Assembly: GCA_001599355.1 (NCBI GenBank)
Contig: BCGQ01000001.1
Span: forward strand, 1,367,135-1,431,134
Source: Nakazawaea peltata
Lineage: Eukaryota; Ascomycota; Pichiomycetes; Alaninales; Pachysolenaceae
Direction: 5' to 3'
DNA: 64,000 bases
Part shown: positions 14,300 to 53,937 of the stretch, piece by piece
Layout of the letters: the number at the start of each line of letters is the position of its first letter
Position numbering within the stretch: position 1 is the stretch's first letter
Position numbers and translations under genes: made by a program
Notes under the pieces: generated by a model
Told to the model about the DNA's origin: nothing
Seen by the model: the letters and a program-made list of their open reading frames with translations, nothing else
Databases searched by the model: none

Positions 14300-15286
14300 A
14301 TGACTGAGTTAGTGGTGGAGACAGATCATGTGTCTCTTGACTTGCTTTACTACTGGCTTAAAGCTACGTATTTTCATCCGTTGTATAGTATGGTCATCAA
14401 CGGCGCTCTTTTCATGAAGACTGGATGTCTTTTATGGGTATATATCGGAGGAATTATAGTGGGATGGCATATATTAGGATGGATTAACTATAAATACAAG
14501 ACTAGATCTATGTCTGGTGAGAATTTGAACTCGAATGCACCCAAGACACTCCTAATAACAGGGGGTTCTGGAGGTTTGGGGTCTCTGTTAGTACGACAGA
14601 TTATGAAGAGTGGGATGAATATTGACAAAATCGTGATTATGGACTTAAAGGCGCCTGAATTTGATGATGAAGAGAAGATTGAGTTCTATCAATGTGATCT
14701 TTCTGATCTTCAACTGTCTTCGGACACCTTAGACATGTTATGTAAAAAGTACAATTTCAACGTGGCCATTTTAAACGCTGGAGTTCGTCATAGCTCAAGT
14801 CTTATAAGGACACCACAGTCCACTATCGACTTTATTATGGATGTGAATGTGAATGTGAATATCCGCATAATCAAGAAGTTGGCCACAGAAGCCAAACAAT
14901 TACATTTGGTCACTATATCTTCGGCTTTGGGAACTGTAGGACCTGCCAACCATTCTATATATGCGGCCTCGAAGCTGGCTCTTCTGATGGTTCATGAGAG
15001 TTTGTCTTATGAAATGAGAGACTTGAGATTCTCATTATTCATGCCAGGTCAAATTGCTACAGAGATGTTCAAAGATGTTTCTATCAATCCATTCTTTTGT
15101 CCTCGACTCGATCCTGATGCTTACGCTAAGAAGATTGTAAGGTGTATTAAGAATGGTGAGAGAGGGTATTTCTGTGATCCATTGTATTCTAGATTGGGAT
15201 TTTTAATGAGAGGATTTCCCAGTGTAGTTTATGATATGGTGAGGTGGATAATGGGACTGGACTCTACTAAAGAGAAGATTGAATAG
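14300..15286 (+). CDS. Membrane-anchored short-chain dehydrogenase/reductase
   Basis: 328 residues from the ATG at 14300; the longer frame upstream only has a GTG. One hydrophobic helix (about 40-60) precedes a classical SDR domain: cofactor motif TGGSGGLGS, NAG motif (ILNAGV), catalytic Ser (TISSALG) and YxxxK (YAASK). The pattern is closest to RDH10/DHRS-type membrane SDRs acting on lipophilic alcohols or ketones; the substrate is unknown and I give no gene name. The residues after YAASK are encoded CTG-Ala-Leu-CTG; SDRs usually have AAL(A/L) here, which supports reading CTG as alanine (codons 14975-14977 and 14984-14986). Confidence 0.85.
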   Translation: MTELVVETDHVSLDLLYYWLKATYFHPLYSMVINGALFMKTGCLLWVYIGGIIVGWHILGWINYKYKTRSMSGENLNSNAPKTLLITGGSGGLGSLLVRQIMKSGMNIDKIVIMDLKAPEFDDEEKIEFYQCDLSDLQLSSDTLDMLCKKYNFNVAILNAGVRHSSSLIRTPQSTIDFIMDVNVNVNIRIIKKLATEAKQLHLVTISSALGTVGPANHSIYAASKLALLMVHESLSYEMRDLRFSLFMPGQIATEMFKDVSINPFFCPRLDPDAYAKKIVRCIKNGERGYFCDPLYSRLGFLMRGFPSVVYDMVRWIMGLDSTKEKIE

Positions 15287-15405
15287 GCTGATAGACAGAT
15301 AGATAGACAGTCAAGTATATAACATGACGAATACATAGACAATACATAGACCTTACGACATTGACTTCAATGACACTTCTACATAACTTATTCTCCTATA
15401 TATCT

Positions 15406-15927
15406 CTATTTTTTAGACTTCAGAAGCAAATCAACCTGATCCATAATCACACTCTTAAATTTATCTAATTGTAAGAACCCTTGAGCATCATAAACCTTGG
15501 AAAATTCCACCAGAGACTCAGCTTTCTTACCATCAAATTCAATCAAAAGCTTATATATAGGCTTATAATCCTCCAGAGAGGTAGAAATGACGAGTTTATT
15601 CTTCTTCTGATCAGTACCAACAAACTTCGTATCCTTCTCGACAAATTTACCGAACAAATAGACAGCAAAAGTGACCACATAGAACCCACAAACCAACAGC
15701 AGTGTCATATGTACATAACTACTATTCTTGAAATCGTTATTGAACTTCTTTTCCAAGTAGAACAAGAGCCCAGCCATCACAATTGACAGGTAAGTCAAGC
15801 CCAATTTGAGATCGATCATGGTGAAATCTTGCTTAAATTCATAACCTAATACGGAGGAGAGGTGTTCATCACAATTCTGTTTCATCTCACTCACAGAGTG
15901 GATGTTGACTTTCTTATTCTCAGCCAT
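15406..15927 (-). CDS. SPC2: SPC2, signal peptidase complex subunit
   Basis: 173 residues, close to yeast Spc2 (178). Cytosolic N-terminus, two membrane helices (about 41-62 and 74-94) separated by a short turn, and a cytosolic C-terminal domain (KLVISTSLEDYKPIYKLLIEFDG). This is the Spc25/Spc2 fold. The protein sits in the ER membrane, links signal peptidase to the Sec61 translocon and supports efficient signal cleavage. Convergent with the SDR gene, 119 bp between stops. The start is the first ATG; an ACGCGT word lies directly upstream in the leader. Confidence 0.9.
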   Translation of the reverse strand: MAENKKVNIHSVSEMKQNCDEHLSSVLGYEFKQDFTMIDLKLGLTYLSIVMAGLLFYLEKKFNNDFKNSSYVHMTLLLVCGFYVVTFAVYLFGKFVEKDTKFVGTDQKKNKLVISTSLEDYKPIYKLLIEFDGKKAESLVEFSKVYDAQGFLQLDKFKSVIMDQVDLLLKSKK

Positions 15928-16259
15928 GACGCGTTAACCTATCAGATGACCTAAGTTTTGACCTGTACCGGATAGCGTAAACCTTACAGTGTTCCTGACG
16001 CCAATGAACTCTTTAGACACTCTGTTAAAAGCTTATGAATTTATTTCCTGACCAGGTAATTGCCTACCTAAGTAATTAAAAACAAATTCTCTCCGTTAGA
16101 TTGTTTTGCCTTCCTATTAAAGCACCTTCCCCTTTAGTACCTCTGCGCTTGATCACCACTAAAAATCGACTCGAACCTCGACTTAATTACTGATAGGCAC
16201 GTTGTATACGGTTTATATCACTGATATATACGTGTACTTCGCATTCAGTACACAGCATC
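15928..16259. promoter_or_regulatory. Shared divergent promoter SPC2/MAG2
   Basis: 332 bp between two divergent starts, so it must hold both promoters. ACGCGT (an MCB-like word) at 15929-15934 lies in the SPC2 leader. A TATATA near 16226, about 35 bp before MAG2, is close for a TATA box. I saw no RNA gene. Confidence 0.5.
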
Positions 16260-18320
16260 ATGGGAAGCAGCTCGAAATTCAACGTTGGAGCTCCCAGTTT
16301 TGTTCCAAATATCACACCTGATACTTTAAGAGGTGGCAACGCCACATCTCTGGCCACCGGTTCATCGATTCCGGTAGCTGGAAGCTCTGGAAGTGGTGGA
16401 TCTGGATCAGGTATGAACTTATCTGCTATTCAAATGAATGGGAATAGTCGGGGAAATACCGGTTCCAGCAGAAAATCCAACCAAAGACATACAAAACAAC
16501 CATCAAAATCCACTAATAACCATAAAAATACCACCAAATCACAACAACAGCAGCATTCTAACCAAAAAGATCTCATTAGATTGAATGATAAATGGGAAGA
16601 GGAGATTTTGGCCGGAAGAGCCAAACCTAATAGCCGTAAAGGTCAGATTTCCATCACCGATCTTTTGGATTTCCAATACGAACAGCATCCCGAACAAGAC
16701 TCTCACTATAACAAACGTTCTAATAATAACAGGAGACGTCGGAGCAACAATGGTGGATTGGGTCCAAAGATTCATCTCTCAGGAGAACGGTATATCAATG
16801 TGAATTACAAGTTCGTCGTCGATTATAATGGAGATTATCGTGCCCAAGTACTAGATACCAACATCCCGATCAATAGACATAACATTTTAAGAGTGATAAT
16901 ACCCAAGAACGATACGCAATGTCCAATTTGTCTTACAGAGGATCTCATTGCACCTCGTATGGCTTCATGTGGTCATTGCTTTTGTCACGTGTGTCTTCTA
17001 AGATACCTTGACAGTGAACTGCCTGTTGTTAATAAGAAACAACAAGCTCAAGAAGGAACAAATAAACCTAAACATAAGGAATGTCCATTATGTGCTAGTA
17101 AAATCAAACCAGATGAGACATTGCCGGTTTTAATTAACCCCATTGATGAACGTTATGAAATGCCCAAAGTTGGTGAAGAGGCTATTCTCCAATTAATGTA
17201 TCGTCCTCATAATAAAATCTTACTGTTCCCCTATCAAATGAAATTACGGAACAAAGAGATCTTTAGTGGGAATATTCCATGGTTTAGCTCGAGTGACTCT
17301 ACTGCCTACGATTCTAAGAACTTAAATCTTACAGGGAATGATTTATTCCAATATTCCAGGATCATGAAAGCAGGACCAGAGTTCGCCATAGATAATTATT
17401 TAAGAGAGATCTCGGATATTCTGACCGAGCGTGAAAAAGATGCCCTCGAATACGGTGAAAGTGATGTCTATTACAATAAGGCAATCGAAAGGTCAAGAAA
17501 ACTGATCGAGGCTATCGAAAAAGATTCCTTATCGCACAAATTAAGTGAAGTCACCATCCATACAAATTCCTCCATTGGAGCCGAAGTGCCTTTAGAAGAA
17601 TTAAGTTTACTCCAACAATCTCAAACCGAGATAAATGACTCAAATACCTTTTTTTTCTACCAAACGTCATTCAATTCAAAGATCAAGTTTTTCGTTTCCG
17701 TGTTGGATAACAAAATCTTGAAACTGCTCTACGGATCTTACTCGAACTTCCCGTTATGTCTCAATATCAAGATCGAAAATATAGTACATGATTACATCGT
17801 GAACGATGAGGTGATTAAGAAGTACAAATTCCTTAGTTATTTACCACATGGAACCGAGATTGCGTTCTTAGAACTCGACTGGTTCGAAGACCGCAAGACC
17901 AACGGCAAGAGAAAATCGGTTCTCCCAACCGAAGTGTACCAAGAATTTCTGAAAGAGTTGAATTCTCGTTCCGAAAAGACGAGATCGAAGAATCTGCGCG
18001 AGGAGAGGTCACGTGCTCGGTATCAGAACGAATTGGAATGGAAGACTAGAGAGTTCTATGCTAATGAGAATAACTTTGCCATTGAGGATTATGGGGTGAT
18101 TCCTACGGTTAACAAATTTGAGCCGTTGGTGTTTGAAGAGTCCAGTGAGTCTGATGTTAAATATGAGACGTCTGTTTGGGGTACAAAGGTAGTGAAGACT
18201 CAAGAAGAAGAGGACAATGATGATGGAGATACTTATTTGTCGGAATTATTGAGGTTATCGAAGGAGAAGGAAGATAAGAAGAAGGGTAAGAAGGGTAAGA
18301 AGAAGCTTGTATTGATATAG
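16260..18320 (+). CDS. MAG2: MAG2, RNF10-type RING ubiquitin ligase
   Basis: 686 residues. Low-complexity Gly/Ser/Asn N-terminus, a basic patch, then a C3HC4 RING (about 221-280: CPICLTEDLIAPRMASCGHCFCHVCLLRYL...CPLC) followed by the RNF10-family region (YRPHNKILxFPYQMKL). The acidic/basic C-terminus ends in a Lys-rich tail. RNF10/Mag2 ligases ubiquitylate 40S ribosomal proteins during ribosome quality control. Yeast Mag2 has 670 residues. The codon at 17223-17225 is CTG where relatives have Ala in (T/I)LALP-like context. Starts at the first ATG. Convergent with CRN1, 46 bp apart. Confidence 0.88.
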   Translation: MGSSSKFNVGAPSFVPNITPDTLRGGNATSLATGSSIPVAGSSGSGGSGSGMNLSAIQMNGNSRGNTGSSRKSNQRHTKQPSKSTNNHKNTTKSQQQQHSNQKDLIRLNDKWEEEILAGRAKPNSRKGQISITDLLDFQYEQHPEQDSHYNKRSNNNRRRRSNNGGLGPKIHLSGERYINVNYKFVVDYNGDYRAQVLDTNIPINRHNILRVIIPKNDTQCPICLTEDLIAPRMASCGHCFCHVCLLRYLDSELPVVNKKQQAQEGTNKPKHKECPLCASKIKPDETLPVLINPIDERYEMPKVGEEAILQLMYRPHNKILLFPYQMKLRNKEIFSGNIPWFSSSDSTAYDSKNLNLTGNDLFQYSRIMKAGPEFAIDNYLREISDILTEREKDALEYGESDVYYNKAIERSRKLIEAIEKDSLSHKLSEVTIHTNSSIGAEVPLEELSLLQQSQTEINDSNTFFFYQTSFNSKIKFFVSVLDNKILKLLYGSYSNFPLCLNIKIENIVHDYIVNDEVIKKYKFLSYLPHGTEIAFLELDWFEDRKTNGKRKSVLPTEVYQEFLKELNSRSEKTRSKNLREERSRARYQNELEWKTREFYANENNFAIEDYGVIPTVNKFEPLVFEESSESDVKYETSVWGTKVVKTQEEEDNDDGDTYLSELLRLSKEKEDKKKGKKGKKKLVLI

Positions 18321-18366
18321 ATAAGATATAGTTTACATAGTATAACAGTCTAGCATGTCTAATGTC

Positions 18367-20350
18367 TTATTTCAGTAATAATTGATCGATCTTGTCTTCT
18401 AAGGATTTGATACGGATGTCTTTTTCTAAACCGGAATCGATTAATTTGGAGATTAAGGATTCTAAGGTTTGGACGGTTGATTGTAATTTTTCAACTGTTT
18501 GTTTTAAACCTGCGGTGGCAGTTTTTGGGGCAGATGCTGCGGCTGGGGTTTCAGCTTTTTCAACCTCTGGTTCGGCCTTTTCAACCTTAGGCTCGGCCTT
18601 CTCGACCTTTTCAGCCTTTGGCTCGGCCTTCTCAACCTTTGGCTCGACCTTTGGCTCGACCTTTGGCTCAACCTTAGGCTCAACCTTTTCAACCTTAGGC
18701 TCAGTCTTGGTCTTAGGCTCATCCCACTCAGATTCTTCAACCTCCTTAGAAGCATCCTCAACCTCATCTTCACTAAGATCATTCACCTTATCCAACATAC
18801 TACTAACACCAGAAGATGATTTCAACATTTCATCAACAGTTGTAGATCTTGAAGGAGGAGCTGAACTAACAGGAGTTGACTTGACCTCTTTCTTAGGTTC
18901 TTCCTTAACCTCCTTCTTTGGCTCTTCCTTAATCTCCTTCTTTGGCTCCTTCTTTGGCTCCTCCTTTGGCTCTTCCTTCTTAGTCTCCTTTGGCTTAGTT
19001 TCAACCTTCAGACTCAGAGTCAACGCTGGTGTCTCTCCATTATATAAATCCAGCATAGAGACCAAAATTGGTCCATCAACCTTCTTTCCACTCTCCCATT
19101 CCTCAGCACTCAATGCAGGGGTTCCACTTGGTGCATCAGGGAAGATATCATCTTGGAAATATTCTCCCTTTCTTGGACAGATAAAAGAGATCGGTTCGAT
19201 GTAACTATCATTTCCACAAGTCTTATAAGCCTTCAAGATCTCATTTTCATGGATGTTAACAGCTCTCTTAGGACCAAAAGCAAATCCTCTTTGTGGATCG
19301 GTGGATTGATACTCAGATAATTGGAATAATTCATCATTTTCAAACTCGAAATAACGAATGTTTCCATCACCTTTACCAGCTAAGTATAACATATTGGTAA
19401 GAGGGTCAAATAATGGGATAATGACACCGGCAGATAAATCGACGGTATAAAAACCACCAAGAGATCCCTTCTTAATATCAGTAGTGTCCCAAACACCGAT
19501 TTGACGGTCGGATAATTTACTAAATCCAGTAGTAGCGATTCTATCAGGAGACATCCAAACGACTCTACTCAGTTTAGCACCAGTATGACCTGGACCTTCA
19601 GATACGATTTCACCGGTTTGAGCGTCCCAAATTCTGATAGTTTTGTCACGGGAAGTAGTGGCTAATAAAGTACCATTATAATTCCAGTCAAACGATTGGA
19701 TCAGATCTTTATGTTGTAAAGTGACGATGACTTTACCTGTCTCAACATTCCAAACCTTGACGGAATAATCCATGGATGAGGAGGCCAAGATATCCTTGGC
19801 GACAGGATTGAATTTGATATGACCAATCTTTCTCTTATGGCCTACTAAGACCTTGGTTGGTTCGGTGATATCCTTGATGGAATCAGACCCATCGACGTAA
19901 TGATGGAAAGAATAATCATCCGGGATTCTCCAAATGGAGATCTTACCATCATCACCCGAAGAAGCAACGACTTGATCATCGAATGGATCAAAATCGATAT
20001 CTAAAACGGTGGCAGCGGTTCTAAAGAGGGGGACCAAATCAGGAGCCTTACCGACCTCGGCAATTGGGATCACAGCAAAGGCTCCACCTCCACTGGCTTG
20101 CCAACAAGATCCAATGTACTTACTATTGGCCTTAATCAAGTTTGCATCGAAGGCATTAGTACTGATTTTCAAGTTCTCATAACTGGCTTCTTTCTTAGCT
20201 TTTTGTCCAAAGACGTGTCTGTATTTTGACAGACGAACAAATCTTCCACTGGATGGGGTTAGTATGATGGAGTTGGTGGTATTACTAAATATCTGGGCGA
20301 GAATTGGCCATTGGCTGATTTCTGGCTCTAGCGCTGTTCACTTACCTCAT
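18367..20350 (-). CDS. CRN1: CRN1, coronin (two exons)
   Basis: Spliced gene: exon 1 20346-20350 (only ATGAG), intron 20249-20345 (97 nt; GTAAGT donor, TACTAAC branch at 20258-20264, CAG acceptor), exon 2 18367-20248; 628 residues. Splicing gives MSGRFVRLSKYRHVFGQKAKKE, the invariant coronin N-terminus; the longest open frame starts only at a TTG inside exon 2. Coronin binds F-actin and regulates Arp2/3. A seven-bladed WD propeller fills residues 1-400 (SSSMDYSVKVWNVETG, TTSRDKTIRIWDAQTG). A unique region with KEEPKK and KVEPKVE repeats follows, then an acidic CA-like segment and a C-terminal coiled coil (about 588-628) for trimerisation. Confidence 0.96.
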
Positions 20351-20567
20351 GTTTGATGTTGTGATGTAGTGGAATTAGTTGAATGTCAGTGGAAAATAAC
20401 AACAGGATGGAACGGAAAATAACCTAATTAGGAAAGTGATAGAGTGTGAGCAAATAGATGGTATATATGAGCAGATTATGAATAATGATAAGAAACTTGG
20501 GGAACTTGGAAAAATAAGGACAGGAAAATTAAGAAACATAAAGAGGGAGGTTAGGGAGAGGCCACAT

Positions 20568-21441: not shown

Positions 21442-24400
21442 ATGGATGATTTGGTGGCGCGGATACAACAGTCCCATCGCTGTCCAAGTGATGGCCAGTA
21501 CCAACAATCTGTACTCCAGGAGGCCTTCAAATTCATAGTCGCGTTGCCAAAAGACGCTCACCTCTTTTGTGACCCCACCGCCAAACCACCCGCCGTTCAT
21601 TTATTGATCTTATTTTGCATGTCTGACACTTCCAATTTGAAATGGCTTCAAGATCGAATCCTGGTCTCGTTAGCTACTTGCCGTGATTGTATTCTCCTGT
21701 TCCATGAAGGTAGATGCGACCTCATGAGAGCCTTCTTGGAGATCAGAAAGTTACCCTACGCTACCGTCAAGAAATTTAATGATGTCATTTTAGATTGGGA
21801 AGCTAATTCTCTCGTATATAAACTCGAGAAAACCATCACTGAAGGGTTCGGAGCTCAACGTGACAAACAAATTCCTCCACTGTTATTCGAATGTTTGATT
21901 TCTCCTAGCATTTTCAGGGTCAAACCTCAACTTAAACCTATTTTTAGGGAAATTTTTGTTCGATTCCTGGGAAATGGGATGCAATTGCCCACTTATTTGA
22001 CCCCAGGTGCCCTATTTTTCGCTTTTGAGCGTGATCGTAGTATGTTGGATATCAAATTTAAACTCATTGGTCTGTTACAAACTCCATTTACTTGGTCTAA
22101 CATAATATCCGAAGAATTCCTCTTGCATTTAATCGCCGTCCAGGATCCTTCTCTTTATAATGAGGAGAATTGCAAGCTTTTCTGGATTTCTTTCAACCCT
22201 ATACTTCTTAATTTGGATTCAGAGACAATAATGTCTCAATTGATTGAGAATATGCCCACTTTATCACTGTTGAGAACCGTATTACCGTTCATTGTCGAAC
22301 CATTCCATAAAGTACTTTTGAACCAGATTTTTTCTCGTCTTCGTGGGCCATTGCCTCTTTGTCTTGTCGCTCTTAACCGTCTTATCCTTAAATTAGGCCC
22401 AGGTTTCTGGAAACTGGTCCTGCCTGTATCATATTTGAACATTTTAGACACCATATTTGTCAATCCATATTACGCTCAGCTTTTGAAACTTCCTGTTCCT
22501 CCAATGGGCCCAGATGCTATCTATAAATTCTCCGATTTACTCAGGTGGATTGTACTGGTGTATGAGAGCCTTCGAATTGACAGCTCTGAAAGACGTCAAG
22601 CTGGTTTGAAAATCGCAGATTTCTTATTCAGGCAAACTCACAATGGGGTGAACAACTTGGAGATCATTAAAATCGCTTTACTGATCCTTGATGATTGTTT
22701 CAGAATCAGAAATACTTTCGACTCTCCTTCTTTGCCGTTAGAATTAGTTTCTAAAGATGAATGCCGTGTCTTTGTCGATAGCCAAATCGATTCTTGTTTC
22801 ATCATTTGTTCTCATGATCTGGAGACTGAGTTAGAAAAAGATCTGCGTCGTTTGGCCTTGTCCATCATCGTCAACGCCATTAAAAGTGATATCTTTTATT
22901 TCATTGTTCAGTGTCGTGCTTTGAAGTTTGGCAAAACTAATCAATTACCCCTTGTTAAGTATAGGGACTATTTTTGGAAAGCGTTGACCACTTTTGTCGA
23001 ACATAGCTCATTTGGTGCCGCAAATGTTTTACCATCACTTTCTCTTTTACTGTTAATTACGCCTGTGGCTGAGGATCCGACTACTAAAAGTTCCGCTCAA
23101 AAACAGGGTATTACTGTAGAAGCATTCAACAAACAAACCCAACTTCTCTTCGCCGGAGTTACAACTCTTCTTGAAACTTATGCTTCTTGTGATCCTCAAC
23201 TCCTCAATCAACTCTTTGCCACAAAAGAGTCTGCCATTGGATTCTGGAGTTGTTTCTTCTGCTACGACCAAAGTCTTTATCAAGCTGCTGTAAATATCCT
23301 CTATAATGGGTTTGATGTTGCTGGTCGTTTAGAAGGTATTAAAGTAGTATTAAAGAAGTCTCCGGATGTCGTTTTAAGTTGTTTGGCCGATATAATGCCA
23401 TATATCACGGGAAACTGCATTTATGAACAAGTCCCAAGATCTGTAAGAATCTTGATGGATATGGTAACAGCTCTTGCCGACCCTGTTGAAGGTCTTTTGG
23501 TTGCAGACAATCTTGTATCACAGATGGAAGACTCGAACTTTCTCCATACTTTCTGGATTAATTCTTGGAGCTTCTTAGCCGAATTATACGAGAAAACTGT
23601 TCTCTGGGCTAAATCAATGCTGGCTCTGGATTTAATCGACTATACAAGAGACGTTCTTGACTTGACTCATATGTTATTAGATGCTTTACAAGTTTTCCAG
23701 AAATCTATTGAAGGTGTTAATTTAGTATCTAACATTCTTGAGGTGATTCCTAAGATGCTTGTTTGGTTGAAATTAGGAGATCAAGCTTTATTAAGTTCGT
23801 GTGTTAAGCTGGTTCATAAGGTTCTTGACATTGTTGAGAATGATGATCTGGTCCAATTGGATCCTTCCATTATTTCCACACTTACTAAATTCTCATTGAA
23901 GTCAAAGGGGTACTATAATAAGATTCCAGAGCAACAAAGATTAGATATGTTGGAGAGGGCTCGTGAACTTAATTCTGAGGTTGTTGAATCTATTCAAAAG
24001 GATTATAATCTGAAGCAGCAGTTGCTGCTGCAACTGCAACAACTGCCCCAACAACCCCAAGAGACTACTAGTCGTACTAATCCTGAACCTCAGGTTTTAC
24101 ATATTCAACATGTCAAAGGTAAATCAGGTCAAACGTTACTTTCTGAATTTTTGGGTAAACTGAAATCAATTCCTGAACCTCCTCTGCCTGAAGAACCTCC
24201 ACTGAAACAGTCTTTATTACTGGCAGCTAAATTGGATTTGGCTCTGAGAAGAAAAGCAATGAGTGCAACCTCCAAGCTGAAACCAATCGCTGCTCCTGCG
24301 GCTCCAAGAGCTCCTGGTTTCAATAGAAAGAGACAAGATTCCGATTCTTCTGATTCTTCTGACTCAGATTCCGACTCTGATACTGAGGTTGGTGGCCTTT

Positions 24401-27400
24401 TCAAAACTTCCAAACCGGAGAAACGTATTGCCAAACCCAAGAATAATCTGATCTCCTTACAGTTCAAGAAGATCGTCACCAAGACACCAGTCAGAAAGAC
24501 TGTCGATCAAAAGGAATTGGATGCTCAACGTATGAGATTAAGGTTGAATGTAGACTTAAATCCATTGTACAAGAACGTTTTATCCTGGAGTTATTCTAGA
24601 GAAAGTGAATTCCCTCAAGATATGGAAGATCCACTGAAATTCTATACCAAAGTGAATGATTCTTTCAGCACTACAGCCGAGTATGTCAAGACTTTTGAAC
24701 CTTTATTGTTGTTGGAATGTTGGCAAGCTATTCAACAATCGAAACAAATCGGAGAAGAGACTCCTTTCAAGATTATAGTAGGAAGCAGATCAACGACTGA
24801 TTCGTTCTTTGATGTATATGCTTCGGTCAAGAAGGAATACTTATCTCAATATAAAATTGGAGATTCAGATATGATTGTTTTATGTTTTGATTCCAATGCC
24901 CCAGAGAATTTGAATCCTAAAAATGCCGGCCCAACAATTGAAGCCATCAAGAATTCAAAGACAACATGCTTGGCTAAGATTAGAGAGATTAAAAGTGTCA
25001 ATGCCGAGCTTGCTGATATCACATTACGTGTCGGTACTAAGAATAATCCTATGATCTCATATTTAACACCAAGAACAGAATTGATGGCTATGAAAGTGAT
25101 GCAGATGATCACCATTGAGAGAGAATACTCTTCCTTGAAGGGTTTGGAATATTATGATCTTAAAAAGAGCATCATTTCTGCGACACCCACCATCACTGAT
25201 TCCTTTGTTACTTCGACTGTGTCCAAACTTACTCAGTCATTAAGAGTTAACCAATCTCAAGCAAGAGCTATTCTGGGAGCCTCTTCTTCTCAAGGTTTCT
25301 CCTTAATTCAAGGTCCTCCAGGTACTGGTAAGACTAAAACCATTCTTGGTATTATTGGACATATCTTATCTACAGCCAGATCTACAGTTGGTAAACCTAT
25401 AATGGTTCCTGGAATGACTCCTAACCCACCACAACAACAGCAACAAAAGAAGATCTTGATCTGTGCACCTTCAAATGCGGCAGTAGACGAATTAGTGTTG
25501 CGTCTTCGTGCCGGAGTATTGAACTCTGACGGTGCTCGAATGGAAACCAAGATTGTTCGTCTTGGTCGTTCAGAAGTTGCTAATCCCGCTGTAAGAGATT
25601 GTGTATTGGAAGAAATCGTCGATCGTGAGTTGAGTGCTAGGAATGATCTCAATGTTCAATCATCAGACCCAAAATTAAGAGAAGAACATACTAAATGTGT
25701 GTCCGAAAGAAACTGTATTATGGATCAGTTGAGAGATGAAAATTTGACCCCTGAACAGATCGATAGTTTGAGAAAGACTTTGAAATCCGTAGTACAAAAG
25801 AGAAATGAACTTGGTCTGAAATTAGATGAACAAAGAGAAAGAATATCCAAATCTTCAAGAACAAGAGAGATAGAGAAACGTCTGATACAAGCAAAAATCT
25901 TATCTGAAGCTCATGTTATTTGTTCGACCCTTTCAGGTTCTGCTCATGATGTTTTGTCCAGTTTATCGATGACTTTCGATACTGTGATCATTGATGAGGC
26001 AGCTCAGTGTGTGGAATTATCAGCTATCATCCCGTTGAGATATGGTTGTAAGAAATGTATTATGGTGGGAGATCCTAATCAATTACCTCCTACCGTGTTA
26101 TCACAACTGGCAGCCAAGTTTTCATATGAACAATCATTGTTCGTGAGAATGCAGAAGCAACATCCTAATTCTGTCTATCTTTTAGATGTTCAGTATCGTA
26201 TGAATCCTGAGATTTCCAGGTTCCCAAGTGCCGAATTCTATAATTCCAAGTTACTTGATGGTCCTAATATGGCCCAAGTAACACTGAGATCATGGCATTC
26301 TTCTTCTCCATTCAAACCTTATATGTTTTATGATATTGATGATGGTCGACAGAGTCAAAATGATAGAACTAAGTCGTTTTTCAATGGACTGGAAGCTAAA
26401 TTTGCCTTGGAATTGATCACTAAATTGTTCAACGAATATCGTGATGAGGATTGGGTTGGTAAGATTGGAGTTATTTCTCCATATAAAGAACAGATTAGGT
26501 ATATGAGAGATCTTTTTATCAAGAGATTTGGTAGATCTATATTAAAGGAAGTTGATTTTAATACTGTCGATGGTTTCCAAGGTCAAGAAAAGGAAATCAT
26601 TATTATGTCATGTGTTCGTTCCGGTCAACAGACAGGTATTGGATTTTTGGGTGATGTCCGTCGTATGAATGTTGCTTTAACTCGTTCGATCTCATCGTTA
26701 TGGATTTTAGGAAACTCAAAGGCTTTAATTCAGAACAGAGTATGGAGTGATTTGGTTAATAATGCAGTTGACAGAAAGGTATGTTTTAAGGTCGCTAAGG
26801 GTGTATTAAATGAAGGGATGTTCAATCGTCCAGTGGAGAATTTGAATACGGAATCATCAGCTGAACCACCGGCTTCTGCAAACCTTTCTACAAAGGCTTC
26901 TGGAAATGCTCCCGTAAATGCTTCCACTGATTCTGGCCCAGTGGAGACAACTGATGACCTGGAACTTCGTCGTAAACGTAAACTGGCGATTGAAAAGTTG
27001 TCACTGCAAAAGAAAGATGCATCAAAACCAAAACGAAGAAATATAGTACCTTTCTCTGGAAGATCACGAAATGTTTTGACATCTGACTCGTTACAAAGTG
27101 TGAAAACGAAAAAGGTGACTCAAGAAAGCAGTCAGGTTCTGACTCCTCCCCCTCCACCACCAGCTCTGCCTCCAGCTTCACTTCCACCTCTTCCTCCACC
27201 ACCTCCTCCAATTGATGGGTCTTCAATAGTGAGCCAAGTGAAAGATCCTCGAAAAAGAAGAACATCCAGTCAATCAGTCTCTCTGCCTGACCCTATTCTG
27301 CCTCCGCTGCCTCCGCTGCCCCCTGTGGTAGCCCTGCCACCCGTGGCTGCCCTGCCTCCTCCTGCTCTGCCCAACTTCCTGCAACATCATGACACCAACT

Positions 27401-27681
27401 CATATTCAGACTCTTCTGATAGCAGTGGCTCGAAATACCCAAGATCAAATTCTTCCGGTTTATTACCACAAGACAATCATCGCATAAATAAACCCCACCA
27501 TCAAAATTACAAAAGAAAACCTTATTACAATAATGGATACGAGAAGAGACACCCTGATGACAGGGATCAATCTAATCGTTCCTACAATGGAAATCGTCCT
27601 CAAAATGGACATGGGAACCGTTATGATTCTTACGGGTCTCGAGGAAAGTACCATTATGAATCGAGATCCAAAAGAAATTAG
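21442..27681 (+). CDS. SEN1: SEN1, RNA/DNA helicase of transcription termination
   Basis: 2079 residues from the ATG at 21442; the longer frame upstream starts with TTG. Sen1 unwinds RNA:DNA hybrids, terminates short non-coding transcription with Nrd1-Nab3 and resolves R-loops. A helical N-terminal domain (1-840) is followed by a Gln/Pro linker, an acidic Ser/Asp patch (near 970) and a superfamily 1B helicase core: GPPGTGKT (about 1291-1298), a coiled stalk (1390-1470), DEAAQ (about 1517), GDPNQLPPTV, QYRMNPEI, VDGFQGQEKEII, and NVALTRS. The C-terminus is Pro-rich, with CTG codons alternating with Pro (near 27300-27370); with CTG as Ala these become Ala/Pro repeats. Yeast Sen1 is 2231 residues. 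Confidence 0.96.
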   Translation: MDDLVARIQQSHRCPSDGQYQQSVLQEAFKFIVALPKDAHLFCDPTAKPPAVHLLILFCMSDTSNLKWLQDRILVSLATCRDCILLFHEGRCDLMRAFLEIRKLPYATVKKFNDVILDWEANSLVYKLEKTITEGFGAQRDKQIPPLLFECLISPSIFRVKPQLKPIFREIFVRFLGNGMQLPTYLTPGALFFAFERDRSMLDIKFKLIGLLQTPFTWSNIISEEFLLHLIAVQDPSLYNEENCKLFWISFNPILLNLDSETIMSQLIENMPTLSLLRTVLPFIVEPFHKVLLNQIFSRLRGPLPLCLVALNRLILKLGPGFWKLVLPVSYLNILDTIFVNPYYAQLLKLPVPPMGPDAIYKFSDLLRWIVLVYESLRIDSSERRQAGLKIADFLFRQTHNGVNNLEIIKIALLILDDCFRIRNTFDSPSLPLELVSKDECRVFVDSQIDSCFIICSHDLETELEKDLRRLALSIIVNAIKSDIFYFIVQCRALKFGKTNQLPLVKYRDYFWKALTTFVEHSSFGAANVLPSLSLLLLITPVAEDPTTKSSAQKQGITVEAFNKQTQLLFAGVTTLLETYASCDPQLLNQLFATKESAIGFWSCFFCYDQSLYQAAVNILYNGFDVAGRLEGIKVVLKKSPDVVLSCLADIMPYITGNCIYEQVPRSVRILMDMVTALADPVEGLLVADNLVSQMEDSNFLHTFWINSWSFLAELYEKTVLWAKSMLALDLIDYTRDVLDLTHMLLDALQVFQKSIEGVNLVSNILEVIPKMLVWLKLGDQALLSSCVKLVHKVLDIVENDDLVQLDPSIISTLTKFSLKSKGYYNKIPEQQRLDMLERARELNSEVVESIQKDYNLKQQLLLQLQQLPQQPQETTSRTNPEPQVLHIQHVKGKSGQTLLSEFLGKLKSIPEPPLPEEPPLKQSLLLAAKLDLALRRKAMSATSKLKPIAAPAAPRAPGFNRKRQDSDSSDSSDSDSDSDTEVGGLFKTSKPEKRIAKPKNNLISLQFKKIVTKTPVRKTVDQKELDAQRMRLRLNVDLNPLYKNVLSWSYSRESEFPQDMEDPLKFYTKVNDSFSTTAEYVKTFEPLLLLECWQAIQQSKQIGEETPFKIIVGSRSTTDSFFDVYASVKKEYLSQYKIGDSDMIVLCFDSNAPENLNPKNAGPTIEAIKNSKTTCLAKIREIKSVNAELADITLRVGTKNNPMISYLTPRTELMAMKVMQMITIEREYSSLKGLEYYDLKKSIISATPTITDSFVTSTVSKLTQSLRVNQSQARAILGASSSQGFSLIQGPPGTGKTKTILGIIGHILSTARSTVGKPIMVPGMTPNPPQQQQQKKILICAPSNAAVDELVLRLRAGVLNSDGARMETKIVRLGRSEVANPAVRDCVLEEIVDRELSARNDLNVQSSDPKLREEHTKCVSERNCIMDQLRDENLTPEQIDSLRKTLKSVVQKRNELGLKLDEQRERISKSSRTREIEKRLIQAKILSEAHVICSTLSGSAHDVLSSLSMTFDTVIIDEAAQCVELSAIIPLRYGCKKCIMVGDPNQLPPTVLSQLAAKFSYEQSLFVRMQKQHPNSVYLLDVQYRMNPEISRFPSAEFYNSKLLDGPNMAQVTLRSWHSSSPFKPYMFYDIDDGRQSQNDRTKSFFNGLEAKFALELITKLFNEYRDEDWVGKIGVISPYKEQIRYMRDLFIKRFGRSILKEVDFNTVDGFQGQEKEIIIMSCVRSGQQTGIGFLGDVRRMNVALTRSISSLWILGNSKALIQNRVWSDLVNNAVDRKVCFKVAKGVLNEGMFNRPVENLNTESSAEPPASANLSTKASGNAPVNASTDSGPVETTDDLELRRKRKLAIEKLSLQKKDASKPKRRNIVPFSGRSRNVLTSDSLQSVKTKKVTQESSQVLTPPPPPPALPPASLPPLPPPPPPIDGSSIVSQVKDPRKRRTSSQSVSLPDPILPPLPPLPPVVALPPVAALPPPALPNFLQHHDTNSYSDSSDSSGSKYPRSNSSGLLPQDNHRINKPHHQNYKRKPYYNNGYEKRHPDDRDQSNRSYNGNRPQNGHGNRYDSYGSRGKYHYESRSKRN

Positions 27682-38816: not shown

Positions 38817-41543
38817 TTACAGCATCATATCTATACCACTTTTCAAATAATCCCTTAAATTCGAATGATGATGACTTCTATTCGCTTCCCAAATGATCCT
38901 ATCGATTTCTCTACGACCACTATCCAAATCAATTTGATCTAATCTATGCATCTTAGTGTGTCTTAAAAGCTTATAACCAATGTAACACACCAAGAAGAGT
39001 AAGACAGCCCCATAACTGCTGAAAAACACATAAGTCGACCAATTCCCCTTAAGAAATACCACCAAACCATTACAGAATACCAACACGAGCGATGTGAAAA
39101 GTCCATAATACAGCAAATAAGGTTGTAATGGTGATCTATAAGGATATTCAGGGTCGCCTCTGTTAGTAATATCAGTTCTGAGTCTTAAACCATAGTAGAA
39201 TCTAATGAAAGAAAAGTTAATTCCAGCCCACACAACTAATCCACAAGACGAACAAATATTAAGGAATTGCTGGAAAACCGTCAGAGTATTGTAATTGACG
39301 GTCAAGTACAGCAAGGCAGCGAACGAACCTGAGAACAACACACTGACATAAGGTACACCAGCCTTTGAACAGACCAGGAAGATTCTAGGGAATTTGCCTT
39401 GGATACTGAGGTAGTAACAAGTTCTGGAAGAGGCATATAATTGAGATGAGCCTGCTGTTAAAGCGAAATATACTAAGAAAGCATTCACCAGGCTCGATAA
39501 TCCACAAAGTCCAGCTGTTTGTACGGCAATAACCCATGGACTTCGATTTCCATTAGCAAAACCTGCCCATTCAACAGAAGTTGTACCACAAGTAGCACCC
39601 CCATTTAATTCTATGACTTTATTCAACCGAGTCTGCTCTGAGCCAGTCACAGCATCACCCGATGAATAGTATCGAAGTAATCTAGGGTCACCAGCATAAA
39701 TATTTAAGCTGATAACAAATATACCAACTATATAAAAGATTATAATTCTCCAATAAATCAGTTTTGAGGATTGAGGAATCAGTTTTCTAGGGTTAATCAG
39801 TTCACCTCCGGCTATGATCAGGATTTCAGATCCAACATAACAATACAGAGCTACTACTGAAGCAATTAATACCGATAAAAACCTACCTTTCAGTCCTCCA
39901 ATCCCTTCCAAAGCTCCTAACCCAATATCATTCACATCAAATGTAGGTCTGAATAATCCATAAGTAATGTCATCCTTGAGATCAGACTTCTGAGATTGCC
40001 AATATTTGAATCCTATATACCCTTGAGATGAAGACAGTACTTTACCGGAATTTAAAATGATATTGAACATGATAAGCAGAATAAATATAAGAGATTTAAT
40101 CACACTTGAGTAATATTCAATCTCCCCATATACTCTGACATCACATAAGTTGATTCCCAAGATGACCAACATGAAAAGAGTGACAAAACCCAGAGTTGAG
40201 ACACCGGGGATTTGAAGATTCTCATAATAAGAAAGTAAAATAGTCAGCAGAGTGATTTCTGTAGGAAGACTGATCATATAATTGAACCAATAACAGATCC
40301 CCAAACCGAAACCAAACAGGTCATCTATAAAACGAGACAGAATACCACTGACTCCACCTGCTATGGGGATCAAAGTCATGATCTCACACATAGAAAGCAT
40401 AGTCAGGACTACAGTAGACCCGGAGATCAGAAACCCGATCAAAGTACCTAATGGACCAGCAAGAGAGAACAGTTTCCCACTCAGGAAGAATACTCCAACT
40501 CCTAAAGCTGAGCCAAACAGAAGCATTCTTAAATGTCTTGTTTTTAATTTACGTTGGATCTCATAAGTGGGTCTTCTACGGAACCATGGTGATACTCCAC
40601 TTGGCCCTGTGTCCAGCACATGACCATTATTATCTTCTTCATGATTGGTAGTAACATACTCAAGCAGACTACCTGATTCTAACGACTCCAAAATGGCAAT
40701 ATCAAGCATATCGTTAGCTGTCGAGTTTTGGATAGCCATCTTTTGCTTATCGGTGAGTCTTTGATGGTCAATAGGCACATTATGAAGATCGTCATCGATG
40801 ACATTCGTATTTAAAGAGGGCACATTCTGTAAGTGTATAGACATATCATCTGGCATCGGTTGAGTCCCGTCAGATTTCTTATCAAATATTTTCAGTACCA
40901 GCTGATTGAAATATCTGGAGATAGTCCCAGCTTTGGGAACCGGTTCACTTCCGGCACTAAACCTATCTATATGAGCATCTGGAGGTCCTTGTATCACTGA
41001 GATATGTGTTTGAAGCAGATCAACAGCAGATGAAGATCCTCCATTAGTAGAATCAAATCTATGAAGTTGCAGTTGCCGTTGCAGATTTCTCCAATATTCT
41101 TTAGTTCTGGATCTAAGATAATTCTCAAGCTTGATTTCTTGATCATATCTGGTGAAATCATCAAGCTGAGAGTCTGCTTGACCTCGCATCCTGAACAAAT
41201 TGGTGAAATACCATCTGTCTTTATATCCATAAAGTTCTTCTTTGAGCTTCAGTCTGTCTGTGACCGAGTTTAAGGCAGTTCTGATCAGACTCGGGGTAAG
41301 AGTGATGGGGACCACCGATGAACTGATACTATATTCATCATCAGCCTCTAAGGAGGCCTCGTCCGTCGAAATATCGCCAAATGGATTACCCAGCTTAGGC
41401 TTATAAGCGGAGTTTGCCTGCGAAGGTTTTCTCAAGGGGAATAAATTAGTCGAAGACGACTCTATAGACGCTGAAGATACCTCTAAGGGTATTTCATGGG
41501 GTCCAGATCGTTTGGGATCTTGTTTAGAGGGGAAAAGATCCAT
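38817..41543 (-). CDS. SSY1: SSY1, amino-acid sensor of the SPS complex
   Basis: 908 residues from the ATG at 41541-41543; the longer frame starts with TTG. An N-terminal cytosolic extension of about 345 residues precedes 12 predicted membrane helices of the amino-acid permease family. The long extension and specific phrases identify Ssy1 rather than a transporter: IQRKLKTRHLRMLLFGSALGVG, GFKYWQSQKS.LKDDITYGLFRPTFD, GRFLSVLIASV, LNIYAGDPRLLRYY, QPYLLYYGLF and the C-terminal HRLDQIDLDSGRREIDR. Ssy1 senses external amino acids at the plasma membrane and triggers Ssy5 cleavage of Stp1/Stp2. The loop with CGTTSVEWAGFANGNRSPW corresponds to the region between helices 7 and 8. Confidence 0.94.
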   Translation of the reverse strand: MDLFPSKQDPKRSGPHEIPLEVSSASIESSSTNLFPLRKPSQANSAYKPKLGNPFGDISTDEASLEADDEYSISSSVVPITLTPSLIRTALNSVTDRLKLKEELYGYKDRWYFTNLFRMRGQADSQLDDFTRYDQEIKLENYLRSRTKEYWRNLQRQLQLHRFDSTNGGSSSAVDLLQTHISVIQGPPDAHIDRFSAGSEPVPKAGTISRYFNQLVLKIFDKKSDGTQPMPDDMSIHLQNVPSLNTNVIDDDLHNVPIDHQRLTDKQKMAIQNSTANDMLDIAILESLESGSLLEYVTTNHEEDNNGHVLDTGPSGVSPWFRRRPTYEIQRKLKTRHLRMLLFGSALGVGVFFLSGKLFSLAGPLGTLIGFLISGSTVVLTMLSMCEIMTLIPIAGGVSGILSRFIDDLFGFGLGICYWFNYMISLPTEITLLTILLSYYENLQIPGVSTLGFVTLFMLVILGINLCDVRVYGEIEYYSSVIKSLIFILLIMFNIILNSGKVLSSSQGYIGFKYWQSQKSDLKDDITYGLFRPTFDVNDIGLGALEGIGGLKGRFLSVLIASVVALYCYVGSEILIIAGGELINPRKLIPQSSKLIYWRIIIFYIVGIFVISLNIYAGDPRLLRYYSSGDAVTGSEQTRLNKVIELNGGATCGTTSVEWAGFANGNRSPWVIAVQTAGLCGLSSLVNAFLVYFALTAGSSQLYASSRTCYYLSIQGKFPRIFLVCSKAGVPYVSVLFSGSFAALLYLTVNYNTLTVFQQFLNICSSCGLVVWAGINFSFIRFYYGLRLRTDITNRGDPEYPYRSPLQPYLLYYGLFTSLVLVFCNGLVVFLKGNWSTYVFFSSYGAVLLFLVCYIGYKLLRHTKMHRLDQIDLDSGRREIDRIIWEANRSHHHSNLRDYLKSGIDMML

Positions 41544-42471: not shown

Positions 42472-45500
<3,029 letters not shown>

Positions 45501-48092: not shown

Positions 48093-48145
48093 AGTAGCAA
48101 CACATTATTAATTTATTTAATTGATATATTTTAAATGATGTAGAA

Positions 48146-49045: not shown

Positions 49046-51031
49046 ATGAAAAATGAAGCAAAACCGAGCATACCAAACCAAAATCAAGACCCCTCGTCTA
49101 CTCCACCCCTGAATACTAACATAGTTAACCCCATTGACAAGTCATCCCAGTTAAGCGCTGATGAAGAAGATGAAGAAGACGATGATGATGACCTCTTGAC
49201 TGCAGAATTAGAAAAAGTAGGTCGCTCTGTATCGTTCGGGATGCCTCAAATGCTCCAACTTCCAAGTTTCAGCATCTTTGGAGACCGCTACGACGATTCT
49301 TCCTCTTCAATAGTCAACTACCTTCAAGATCAACAGATCAAACTGCTTCTTAATAAGCGGAGAGATCAAATCAAAGAGTTTATGAATGATTTGGGATCGG
49401 GATTTTCAATACAAGCAGCTCTGCTGCGTTTACAATTCCTTCGGGATGTCGTACTGACCACTTTGGAGTTACCTGTTTCCGATGAAGATATCGATCTGAC
49501 TAAAGAAAGTGATCCCCATGGAGTCTTACCACTGAGAGAGAAGGTTTTACCTATAATTGATGAGTTGGTCTTACCAAAGACCCGTAAACGTAATAAATCT
49601 CTTTCGAAGTACAATCATTTGACCGACATGACAAGTGAGGAGTTTAACGATGAGAACATGTTGAGAAATCGAATCAAGAAGATCATGTCGTTGACTAATG
49701 TTCCCGATTCTTATAAGAATTCGCTTATTCAGAAGTTGATGATGAGAAGTTATTATGAGAAATTAAGAAAAGAGACGATAGAGATGGAACTGCAATCGAA
49801 AGCAGGATATGAAGACCATGAAGAGGAGGAAGAGTCTGATGAATCCGATGGAGAAGACGAAGTTACTTTGACAAAGAAAGATTTAGAAGCTTCTTACCGG
49901 TCTAAAGAAGACAATATCCTTGGATGTACTCATTATATGAGGAATTGTAAGATCGAGTGCTCAATATGCAATAAATGGTATGTTTGTAGGTTCTGTCATG
50001 ATCTGGAAGTATCGGATCATCACTTACCTAGATCTCATACTAAACATGTCCTTTGTATGTTTTGTTTCACACCTCAATTACCTTCACAAATCTGTGTCAA
50101 TGATGAATGTGGAGAGATTTTGAGTCAATATTATTGTGATAAATGTAAATTGTACGACAATGATCCAACTAAAGATATTTATCACTGTGATGATTGTGGT
50201 ATATGTCGTTTGGGTCAAGGATTGAACCAGGATTTCTTCCATTGTAAGGGATGTAATGCTTGTATTCTGATCGAATTACAAGACCATCATCGTTGTATCG
50301 AGAATGCAACTCATAGTAATTGTACTATTTGTGGTGAATATATGTTCCATTCGATTAAACCCGTGGTATTGATGCAATGTGGTCATCCTATTCACCAACA
50401 ATGTTTTGATGAATATACCAAACATTCGTATAAATGTCCTGTTTGTTCGAAGACGATCACTAATATGGAGCTGCAATTCCGTGTCCTTGACCAAGAGATC
50501 GAATCTCAGCCTTTGCCTGAACCTTATGGGAGTTGGAAATGCATTGTACAATGTAACGATTGTAACATGAAGAGTTTGGTTAAGTACCACATTTTGGGAT
50601 TGAAATGTGATAATTGTAAGAGTTATAGCACGTCTCAGATCAAGCTTTTGAAGACCGAAGATGATATCAAGGAGCTAGAAATGAATGACGGTAGGGGTTC
50701 CGTAGACCATAGCTTAAAGATCCACCAAACTATAGATTTCTTGAGTAATGAAGGAGGAGATGAAGATCAAACTAAGAAGTCAGATACTGAAGATTATGAA
50801 GCAGAACACCATAATTACGAGGACGATCAAGTATTTGATCTTAATTTGGATTTAGATTCGATAGGGTCCAAATTAAAGCAAGACACTTTGAAGAGTTTCG
50901 ACAAGTATAAAGAATGGTTGTTTTCTACTATGGACAATTATTTGAATCTGTCGGACTCGAATGATGAGAATGATGAAGAAGGGGATCTGGAGGATGAGGA
51001 TCCTGAAGATGACTACGATGATATGAGATGA
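49046..51031 (+). CDS. CHY/CTCHY/RING zinc-finger ubiquitin ligase
   Basis: 661 residues, homologous to RCHY1/Pirh2-type E3 ligases. An acidic N-terminus (1-290, partly helical) is followed by a CHY finger (GCTHYMRNCKIECSICNKWYVCRFCHD), a CTCHY finger (YYCDKCKLYD..YHCDDCGICRLG..FHCKGCNACI), a RING-H2 (CTICGEYMF..CGHPIHQQCF..YKCPVC, about 432-474) and a zinc ribbon (CNDCNMKSLVKYHILGLKCDNC). Target proteins are unknown. I know no close full-length S. cerevisiae counterpart, but such genes exist in other yeasts and fungi. The CTG at 50471-50473 is in NMExQFRxLD, where relatives have a small residue. Very acidic C-terminus. Its stop is 29 bp from that of SLU7. Confidence 0.9.
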   Translation: MKNEAKPSIPNQNQDPSSTPPLNTNIVNPIDKSSQLSADEEDEEDDDDDLLTAELEKVGRSVSFGMPQMLQLPSFSIFGDRYDDSSSSIVNYLQDQQIKLLLNKRRDQIKEFMNDLGSGFSIQAALLRLQFLRDVVLTTLELPVSDEDIDLTKESDPHGVLPLREKVLPIIDELVLPKTRKRNKSLSKYNHLTDMTSEEFNDENMLRNRIKKIMSLTNVPDSYKNSLIQKLMMRSYYEKLRKETIEMELQSKAGYEDHEEEEESDESDGEDEVTLTKKDLEASYRSKEDNILGCTHYMRNCKIECSICNKWYVCRFCHDLEVSDHHLPRSHTKHVLCMFCFTPQLPSQICVNDECGEILSQYYCDKCKLYDNDPTKDIYHCDDCGICRLGQGLNQDFFHCKGCNACILIELQDHHRCIENATHSNCTICGEYMFHSIKPVVLMQCGHPIHQQCFDEYTKHSYKCPVCSKTITNMELQFRVLDQEIESQPLPEPYGSWKCIVQCNDCNMKSLVKYHILGLKCDNCKSYSTSQIKLLKTEDDIKELEMNDGRGSVDHSLKIHQTIDFLSNEGGDEDQTKKSDTEDYEAEHHNYEDDQVFDLNLDLDSIGSKLKQDTLKSFDKYKEWLFSTMDNYLNLSDSNDENDEEGDLEDEDPEDDYDDMR

Positions 51032-51060
51032 ATTTATGCATGATAAATAATTAATATACA

Positions 51061-52350: not shown

Positions 52351-52559
52351 CTTTAGTACCTTAACACCCTCTCTATTCCACTCAAACCACCTTTCAACTT
52401 TCATCAAATCCCTTCCCAAGTCATATCTTCACTTAGCAAAATACGAATTCTCGAGGACCCCCGATGAGCTCAGATGGAAAAAAAATTTTCTCCAATAGTT
52501 AAAAATTTTTATAGGGAAAGACGAGGTAGAGAGTTGATACAGAGGCAGAGATTAACGAT

Positions 52560-53421
52560 ATGGACTCTAAAACATCATCTTTTGTCAAGAATTTGGCATC
52601 TAACAGTGAGTAAAGGTGAAATGAGCGAATTTTATCGACCCAAATTACTAACCCCTTCAGAACGTACTACTAGAGAGAAGGCTATCGAGTCTTTAAAGCT
52701 GTTCCTCAGTAGTAAGAGCAAGCCTTTGCCAGCATTGGAGTACCAAAAGCTTTGGAAAGGACTATTCTATGCTATGTGGTTCAGTGATATGCCAAGACCT
52801 CAACAAAGATTGGCCACAAATTTGGGTAAATTGTTTTTGGAATCGGTCACTTTGGACTCTTTCATCCCATTTGTAGAACTGTTTTGGGTGGTGATGTGCA
52901 GAGAATGGCCAGGAATAGACCAATGGAGAGTAGACAAATTTTATATGTTGATTAGAAGAGTAGTATACTTCTGTTTCGAGAGACTTTCTCAAGAGGAGTT
53001 CAGTGAAGAGTTGGTGGGTCAATATTTGGGTGTCTTGTCCAAGATCCCATTAAGTGGAGACAGAAAAGTTCCAAATGCTCTTCCTTACCATTTGATTGAT
53101 ATTTATGTTGATGAGATCGAGAGAATGATGTTCAAAGATTTGGACGATGAAGAAAATGAGGATAAGAAAGAAGAACTGAAAGACCTGATAATAGACGCTA
53201 CACCAATTAAACGTTTATTGGAGCCAATGGCTACCCTCCGTAAAGAAGCTTTATTGAAGACAATGAGAGAGAAGATCCTGCAAGATATATATAATGATGA
53301 CAGATTGATAGCATGGGGAGTGATGGAAAAGGAAACTAAGAAAGAGAAACATTCCGATGAAGAAGAAGAATCCGAAGAATCTGAAGAAGATGACGAAGGT
53401 GAATGGACCGGATTTCTGTAA
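52560..53421 (+). CDS. RRP1: RRP1, 60S ribosome biogenesis factor (two exons)
   Basis: Exon 1 52560-52605, intron 52606-52660 (55 nt; GTGAGT, TACTAAC at 52646-52652, CAG), exon 2 52661-53421; 268 residues (yeast 278). Splicing yields MDSKTSSFVKNLASNKRTTREKAIESLK, matching the N-terminus of yeast Rrp1; the in-frame ATGs at 52474 and 52621 are false, the latter inside the intron. Core: LPALEYQKLWKGLFYAMWFSDMPRPQQRLA and FW..MCREWPGIDQWRVDKFYMLIRRV. Rrp1 is nucleolar and needed for early pre-60S assembly. The CTG at 52879-52881 sits before FW where fungal relatives have a small residue or Ala. Acidic C-terminus. Confidence 0.94.
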
Positions 53422-53614
53422 TCTATTTAAACACCCCCAAAATGCATCTTTAGATATTTCGTATATTGTAGTCGTGCACCGCAACACAATTTGCCCCATT
53501 AAGTAATCTCCAGCGAATTTTTCAACTCGCCCTTCTTTTTCGTTTGTTCAAGGAAGTTTAAAGATTTATCTCTAACGTGTATCTAAAGGATAAGATATTA
53601 GTAACTAAAGAAAG

Positions 53615-53937
53615 ATGTCTGACAGTTTTGAGAAGGTCAAGGAAATCCCAACTGATTTCATTAAGGAAGGTACTCAATTTTTGAGTAAATGTACCAAGCC
53701 AGATAAGAAAGGTGAGTATAGATAGACAAGGGGCGGTTTGTGAGCTGTCACCGAGGGTGACCGAGGGTGGCCCAGGGTTTGTTGGAACCGTGCACTTAAA
53801 TCTACAGAAAATACTAACTAAATGTTACAGAATACACCAGAGTCATCAGAGCTGTCGGTGTTGGATTCCTTCTGATGGGTGTTGTCGGATACGCTATTAA
53901 GTTGATCCATATTCCAATCCGTTACTTGATCGTTTAA
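53615..53937 (+). CDS. SSS1: SSS1, Sec61-gamma translocon subunit (two exons)
   Basis: Exon 1 53615-53711, intron 53712-53830 (119 nt; GTGAGT, TACTAAC at 53812-53818, CAG), exon 2 53831-53937; 67 residues. Protein: FEKVKEIPTDFIKEGTQFLSKCTKPDKKEYTRVIRAVGVGFL-CTG-MGVVGYAIKLIHIP.RYLIV, the tail-anchored gamma subunit of the ER protein channel. Yeast has FIAVGIIGYAIKLIHIP here, so the CTG (53872-53874) aligns with Ala. No ORF is long enough to show it without splicing. The intron holds a tandem ACCGAGGGTG repeat near 53750-53770. Confidence 0.97.

Follow-up and report, generated by a model that had tools for sequence, protein, structure and literature searches.

The 64,000-nucleotide stretch of Nakazawaea peltata DNA considered here (contig BCGQ01000001.1, positions 1,367,135 to 1,431,134; hereafter the window) comes, we conclude with near certainty, from the nuclear genome of a budding yeast that reads the codon CUG as alanine (NCBI translation table 26). 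A first-pass annotation of the window had made this proposal from in-frame CTG codons at sites expected to hold alanine or a small residue, and it is now supported both by the residues opposite CTG in the conserved enzymes PYC1 and ACC1 and by an alanine-type tRNA with a CAG anticodon, hereafter tRNA(CAG). In the mechanism that we propose, this single-copy tRNA would be charged by alanyl-tRNA synthetase via the acceptor-stem pair G3:U70, with the anticodon disregarded, and, as no CAG tRNA for leucine or serine was among the 16 class II tRNA genes found, CUG would be decoded as alanine. The CUG-Ala code was described for Pachysolen-related yeasts in 2016-2018; neither the type of tRNA nor the clade is new either, and within the Ala clade the present case is ordinary.

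Residues opposite CTG in conserved proteins

The hand-picked sites of the first-pass annotation are a good lead but little proof on their own, as the unselected CTG sites of single proteins give a mixed picture; the test that decides takes in every CTG codon of PYC1 and ACC1. These two were picked among the conserved genes fetched from the assembly containing the window (11,631,020 bases in 11 contigs) for having the highest CTG codon counts. PYC1 (locus L115; partial, 849 residues) lies on the contig of the window, and ACC1 (loci L118 and L122; 2223 residues) on a different contig. CTG was masked as X, 120 homologues were listed per protein and the Pachysolen protein was set aside, leaving 119 references each (proteins of yeasts of several codes, in the translations given by their sources); a column was kept if at least 60% of the references were present in it, which gave 3,047 columns. 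Of the other fetched genes, a carbamoyl-phosphate synthase gene (L113 and L120) and L117 were set against solved structures alone, and L114/L119, L116 and L121, which we take to be URA2-like, DUR1,2-like and ADE2-like, respectively, were left out.

All 56 CTG codons (15 in PYC1 and 41 in ACC1) could be scored, each against 119 references, and the alignments give the meaning of the codon directly. The commonest residue was alanine in 31 of the 56 columns, serine in 8, glutamic acid in 4, leucine in 3 and some other residue in the remaining 10. The annotation had pointed to a tabulation of the residues opposite CTG as a check, and in this two-gene sample of the genome the 21 CTG columns conserved at 90% or more comprise 20 alanine columns and one glutamine column, with neither leucine nor serine among them. 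When log-odds for CTG were computed against each of the 20 residues, alanine scored +93.9 bits, serine -100.3 and threonine -156.5, placing alanine 194 bits ahead of serine, and among the 57 codons seen in the two genes CTG alone had a best residue other than the standard one. CTG writes 13 of the 83 columns that are 100% alanine and none of the 180 columns that are at least 90% leucine; TTG, TTA, CTT and CTC score as leucine in these genes, from which CTA is absent.

Domain scores point the same way. Pfam was searched with ten proteins of the window, each translated under tables 26, 1 and 12, and one of the ten had no match at all. Over 19 domains, from which further families overlapping those 19 were excluded, the scores summed to 2914.4 bits with alanine, 2882.3 with serine and 2815.2 with leucine, alanine being better than leucine in 16 of the 19 and better than serine in 12, with 4 ties. 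In the carbamoyl-phosphate synthase gene, 5 of 9 CTG sites are shown in the comparison with 5dot, and they face alanine at three positions, E at one and G at one.

The tRNA with a CAG anticodon

Scanning the genome for a CAG anticodon together with a full B box yielded 9 matches, one of which is a tRNA with that anticodon, encoded outside the window by a gene of 73 nt (G000:C4:81426-81498, equivalent to L078:1469-1541). This tRNA folds with a 5-base variable loop, G3:U70 and A73, its bases 1-4, 69-72 and 73 are identical to those of the genome's own tRNA-Ala, and a T run, as is expected for RNA polymerase III, lies directly downstream. It is single copy, a DNA search of the genome with it having matched only itself. 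The label of leucine that ARAGORN gives it derives from the anticodon alone, and by its sequence we assign it alanine identity; the annotation had likewise looked to a tRNA(CAG) of alanine identity as a check, and the sole CAG-anticodon tRNA found does carry G3:U70. Alanyl-tRNA synthetase recognises G3:U70. It needs no particular anticodon bases (PMC5951914; this and the other papers below are cited from excerpts), and because of these two properties an alanine-type tRNA with a CAG anticodon would put alanine at CUG. The published history of the code, in the same excerpts, is one in which tRNA-Leu(CAG) was lost or removed and CUG was captured by an alanine tRNA (PMC5951914). In the present genome, we infer that this tRNA is charged with alanine, that alanine is inserted near-exclusively at CUG and that no other CAG tRNA exists genome-wide.

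The other tRNAs found are observed as directly as this one. With tRNA-Ala(TGC) as the query, a DNA search brought up six tRNA-Ala genes, two with TGC and four with AGC, and 16 class II tRNA genes were recovered, for leucine with the anticodons CAA (five), TAA (two), AAG and TAG, and for serine with AGA (three), GCT (two), CGA and TGA. None of these 16 leucine and serine genes has a CAG anticodon in an exact A-box scan, which a divergent A box would escape. ARAGORN found no tRNA in the window, and a pattern scan for CAG tRNAs with a TGGC A box gave 7 matches, none of them called a tRNA; a looser CAG pattern, with 135 matches vs. 105 in the reversed control and the first 30 loci scanned, adds little. 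At L127:26-131 (G000:C7, about 154.4 kb) lies a tRNA-Leu(CAA) with an intron, assigned from its 5' part; ARAGORN had named it tRNA-Val(CAC) with an intron, a call that we rejected since this 5' part matches the genome's tRNA-Leu(CAA). The tRNA-Leu(TAG) gene (L080, complement of 1490-1697; G000:C4, about 804.5 kb) has a predicted 120-base intron; CUA would be the codon read by its product, a possible competitor at CUG.

Leucine, serine and dual decoding as rival readings

A number of observations weigh against alanine, or against alanine as the whole meaning of the codon. The tRNA survey is partial, the Rfam search having scored 63 of 608 candidates, and over its whole length tRNA(CAG) is 70% identical to tRNA-Val(TAC) vs. 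66% to tRNA-Ala(AGC). We considered and rejected a valine origin, given that bases 1-4 and 69-72 match alanine at 8 of 8 positions, with A73, vs. valine at 6 of 8, with T73, and that the T arm matches tRNA-Ala(AGC) at 14 of 17 positions vs. tRNA-Val(TAC) at 12 of 17. Taken part by part, the acceptor stem and T arm are nearer to tRNA-Ala, and the D arm is nearer to tRNA-Val or tRNA-Gln, a likeness of the D arm from which we draw no claim. The same tRNA has A35, G37 and A73, and these bases are listed for yeast leucine identity (PMC8629427). As to the proteins, leucine is the commonest residue in 3 of the 56 CTG columns, with codons 633 and 813 of PYC1 (counted from MSELEEF) lying in columns that hold leucine in 98 and 93 of the 119 references; Pachysolen PYC1 also has leucine at residues 633 and 813. 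Leucine-majority columns amount to 2 of 56 for CTG vs. 0 of 232 for GCN (Fisher p = 0.037, uncorrected and one of several looks), and the mean leucine share is 0.043 at CTG columns vs. 0.004 at GCN columns. Opposite the six CTG sites of L117, K. lactis 3va7 has S, K, P, L, E and S, with alanine at no site, and the site opposite leucine lies in the stretch GGEAGLHPSN; the gene itself, on the minus strand of its locus, looks like a second, divergent urea amidolyase. Finally, the domains DEAD, SEN1_barrel and WH_RGF3 score slightly better with leucine, and BHD_1, AAA_11 and zf-CHY with serine.

Were CUG leucine as in the standard code, CTG would stand opposite alanine by chance or divergence, and the two PYC1 codons in leucine-majority columns, together with the L117 codon opposite leucine, would find a ready explanation. 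The gene for tRNA-Leu(UAG) is also present, and its product could in principle wobble onto CUG, as is described for Saccharomyces (PMC5951914). However, not one of the 21 columns conserved at 90% or more is leucine, the other leucine codons present in the same two genes do score as leucine, and tRNA-Leu(CAG) is absent among the 16 class II tRNAs found; the PYC1 and ACC1 columns and their log-odds refute leucine as the main meaning, and we give it virtually no credence. A serine reading, under table 12 as in the Candida clade, draws on serine being the second-best residue for CTG and the commonest one in 8 of the 56 columns, none of these at 90% or more, but it too is refuted: no conserved column is serine, the log-odds place serine far below alanine, tRNA(CAG) is without the long variable arm that serine tRNAs have, and the summed Pfam score is 32 bits lower than with alanine. 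The chance that CUG means serine in this genome is, in our estimate, negligible.

A more subtle possibility is that CUG is mostly alanine and measurably also leucine, either through partial charging of tRNA(CAG) by leucyl-tRNA synthetase, given A35, G37 and A73, or through competition from tRNA-Leu(UAG). In Candida albicans, 3% leucine charging has been put down to G37 (PMC5951914), and a 10% leucine share was once suggested for Pachysolen tannophilus in a study cited in PMC8645108, the latter calling that figure mistaken and giving more than 99% alanine for this yeast. The raised leucine share and the two leucine-majority columns at CTG, as well as the L117 codon, would agree with such decoding; however, TTG becomes CTG by one transition (T to C), so that mutation from leucine to alanine explains these sites equally well, and CTG is absent from all 180 columns that are at least 90% leucine. 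We therefore regard the evidence from leucine sites as weak and consider this reading unlikely. Because the only CAG tRNA found combines G3:U70 with A35, G37 and A73, one may still speculate, as a long shot, that CUG works as a dual codon, which stands for alanine in the main and truly for leucine in a small share, and which has also become a main alanine codon even at sites with alanine in all 119 references.

Window genes, relatives and codon usage

In the window, all 11 CTG codons cited by the annotation proved to be CTG and in frame. Gene names are those of the annotation, retained where they fit a PDB or Pfam match, and the source organisms of most solved chains compared are our presumption unless the chain name states them. 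The expectation of alanine or a small residue stood at most sites for which a solved match is shown and did not hold at the SSS1 site in 9i78, which has isoleucine there. In DED1 (plus strand), codon 275 (IFEExKKF; 44352..44354) faces alanine and codon 459 (YPAxSIHGDR; 44904..44906) faces threonine in DDX3X; codon 492 (AVAxRGLDI; 45003..45005), in a stretch that we take to be helicase motif V, also faces alanine in DDX3X, in agreement with the motif having been named an alanine position. The short-chain dehydrogenase has CTG at codons 226 (YAASKxAL; 14975..14977, plus strand) and 229 (14984..14986, plus strand), and the annotation had counted the YxxSKAA motif among its strongest cases; no solved relative was found at E <= 1e-16, and whole-gene scores against Pfam adh_short, of 84.8 bits with alanine, 81.8 with serine and 76.6 with leucine, favour alanine. 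The SSS1 codon, in the second exon (GFLxMGVVGYAIKLIHIP; 53872..53874, plus strand), is in frame with the stop at 53935-53937 and faces alanine in 7kak and in yeast SSS1, the latter as had been claimed for S. cerevisiae. The SSS1 gene itself (53615-53937, plus strand) looks split into a first exon that opens with the ATG at 53615 (MSDSFEKVKEIPTDFIKEGTQFLSKC...) and a second one, in a different frame, that ends at 53937.

The sites in RRP1, ARP6 and MAG2 are weak evidence. RRP1 codon 136 (52879..52881, plus strand) faces glycine in 5z3g and threonine in 8eth, and ARP6 codons 132 (7253..7255, minus strand) and 135 (7244..7246, minus strand) face serine and alanine, respectively, in 6gej, opposite which just one of all 9 CTG sites of ARP6 meets alanine and one falls in a gap. 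Codon 322 of the MAG2-like RING protein (17223..17225, plus strand) was checked for frame, the gene name being that of the annotation. Codon 476 of the CHY-RING protein (50471..50473, plus strand) lies in zinc_ribbon_6, where the codes are hardly separated (86.0 bits with alanine, 85.9 with serine and 84.7 with leucine), and codon 408 of the same protein (CNACIxIELQ; 50267..50269, plus strand), beyond the sites first listed, faces alanine in RCHY1 (7ynx and 2k2c) and threonine in 2dkt. Three further genes are rich in CTG: 1) the ornithine aminotransferase-like gene (60567..61637, minus strand) has 6 such codons, three of which face alanine in both relatives shown (5viu and 1gbn) and three F/S, K/gap and E/E; 2) an amino acid permease (38817..41543, minus strand), presumably SSY1-like, has 34, with AA_permease scores of 314.4 bits for alanine, 308.9 for serine and 294.5 for leucine; 3) the SEN1 helicase (21442..27681, plus strand) has 49, with SEN1_N scores of 424.9, 421.1 and 398.2 bits in the same order, a homologue search with it having given only 4 distant helicases, which were not used. 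A 262-codon open frame without CTG at 18416-19204 (plus strand) lies antisense inside an open frame at 18367-19773 (minus strand) and is probably spurious.

The annotation's likening of the code to that of Pachysolen and relatives agrees with the protein comparisons, in which Pachysolen tannophilus is the best match among the 120 listed for each of PYC1 (87% identical) and ACC1 (77%), masked X counting as mismatch; judged by these values, it would be a relative and not the source species. ACC1 of Pichia membranifaciens is 72% identical vs. 77% for Pachysolen, and Pichia is placed in the Leu2 clade and Nakazawaea, Peterozyma and Pachysolen in the Ala clade (PMC5951914). NCBI taxonomy has Nakazawaea in order Alaninales, family Pachysolenaceae. 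The genome resembles the known CUG-Ala code of table 26 in having CTG at conserved alanine sites, a CAG tRNA of apparent alanine identity and P. tannophilus as its nearest named relative. With the standard code (Leu1 and Leu2 clades) it shares TTG, TTA, CTT and CTC as leucine, and it differs in that no tRNA-Leu(CAG) was found among the 16 class II tRNA genes and no CTG lies in a column at least 90% leucine. Table 12 is the code of the Ser1 clade. The CUG-Ser codes (Ser1 and Ser2) are similar in that the same codon left leucine via a new tRNA with a CAG anticodon and in that G37 stands beside the anticodon, as in all Ser1 species analysed but one (PMC5951914); in contrast, the codon here means alanine, the variable loop is short and no CTG falls in a serine column at 90% or more. 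P. tannophilus itself is described as having no CUG at highly conserved leucine or serine positions (PMC4986446, excerpt), and one survey, according to its excerpt, omitted the five Ala-clade genomes (PMC6701816).

Codon usage was counted in 26 open frames of the window (14,840 codons), one antisense frame of the 27 being left out. CTG is the commonest alanine codon there, at 343 of 997 (34%), followed by GCT (326), GCC (184), GCA (106) and GCG (38), and in 59 other open frames of at least 400 codons, some perhaps antisense and all from loci selected because they surround a tRNA gene, a pattern match or a conserved enzyme, it comes second to GCT with 661 of 2,745 alanine codons (24%). CTA is the rarest leucine codon of the window (27 of 14,840 codons), and TTG is the commonest or joint commonest in the window and the other frames. 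Across 81 genes with at least 15 alanine codons, the CTG share of alanine codons drops with codon bias (Spearman -0.41 vs. the GGT share of glycine, p = 0.00016), which is what one expects of a codon that depends on a single-copy tRNA. According to a printed statement, available as an excerpt, CUG is relatively rare in code-changed clades, in contrast to the 34% and 24% of alanine codons seen here, and no codon counts for the Ala clade were found in the excerpts of the literature searched.

Sense-codon reassignments in nuclear genomes are very rare, and about 2% of positions (343 of 14,840 window codons), many of them conserved, would receive the wrong amino acid if this DNA were translated under table 1 or 12. 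Since no GCN codon can reach CTG in one step, the heavy use of CTG, including at invariant alanine sites, may merit specialist attention, as may the question of whether a tRNA(CAG) with A35, G37 and A73 ever receives leucine. If the dual-codon reading were true, this lineage would preserve a natural record of switches between synonymous codons made in two steps, there being no single base change from GCN to CTG.

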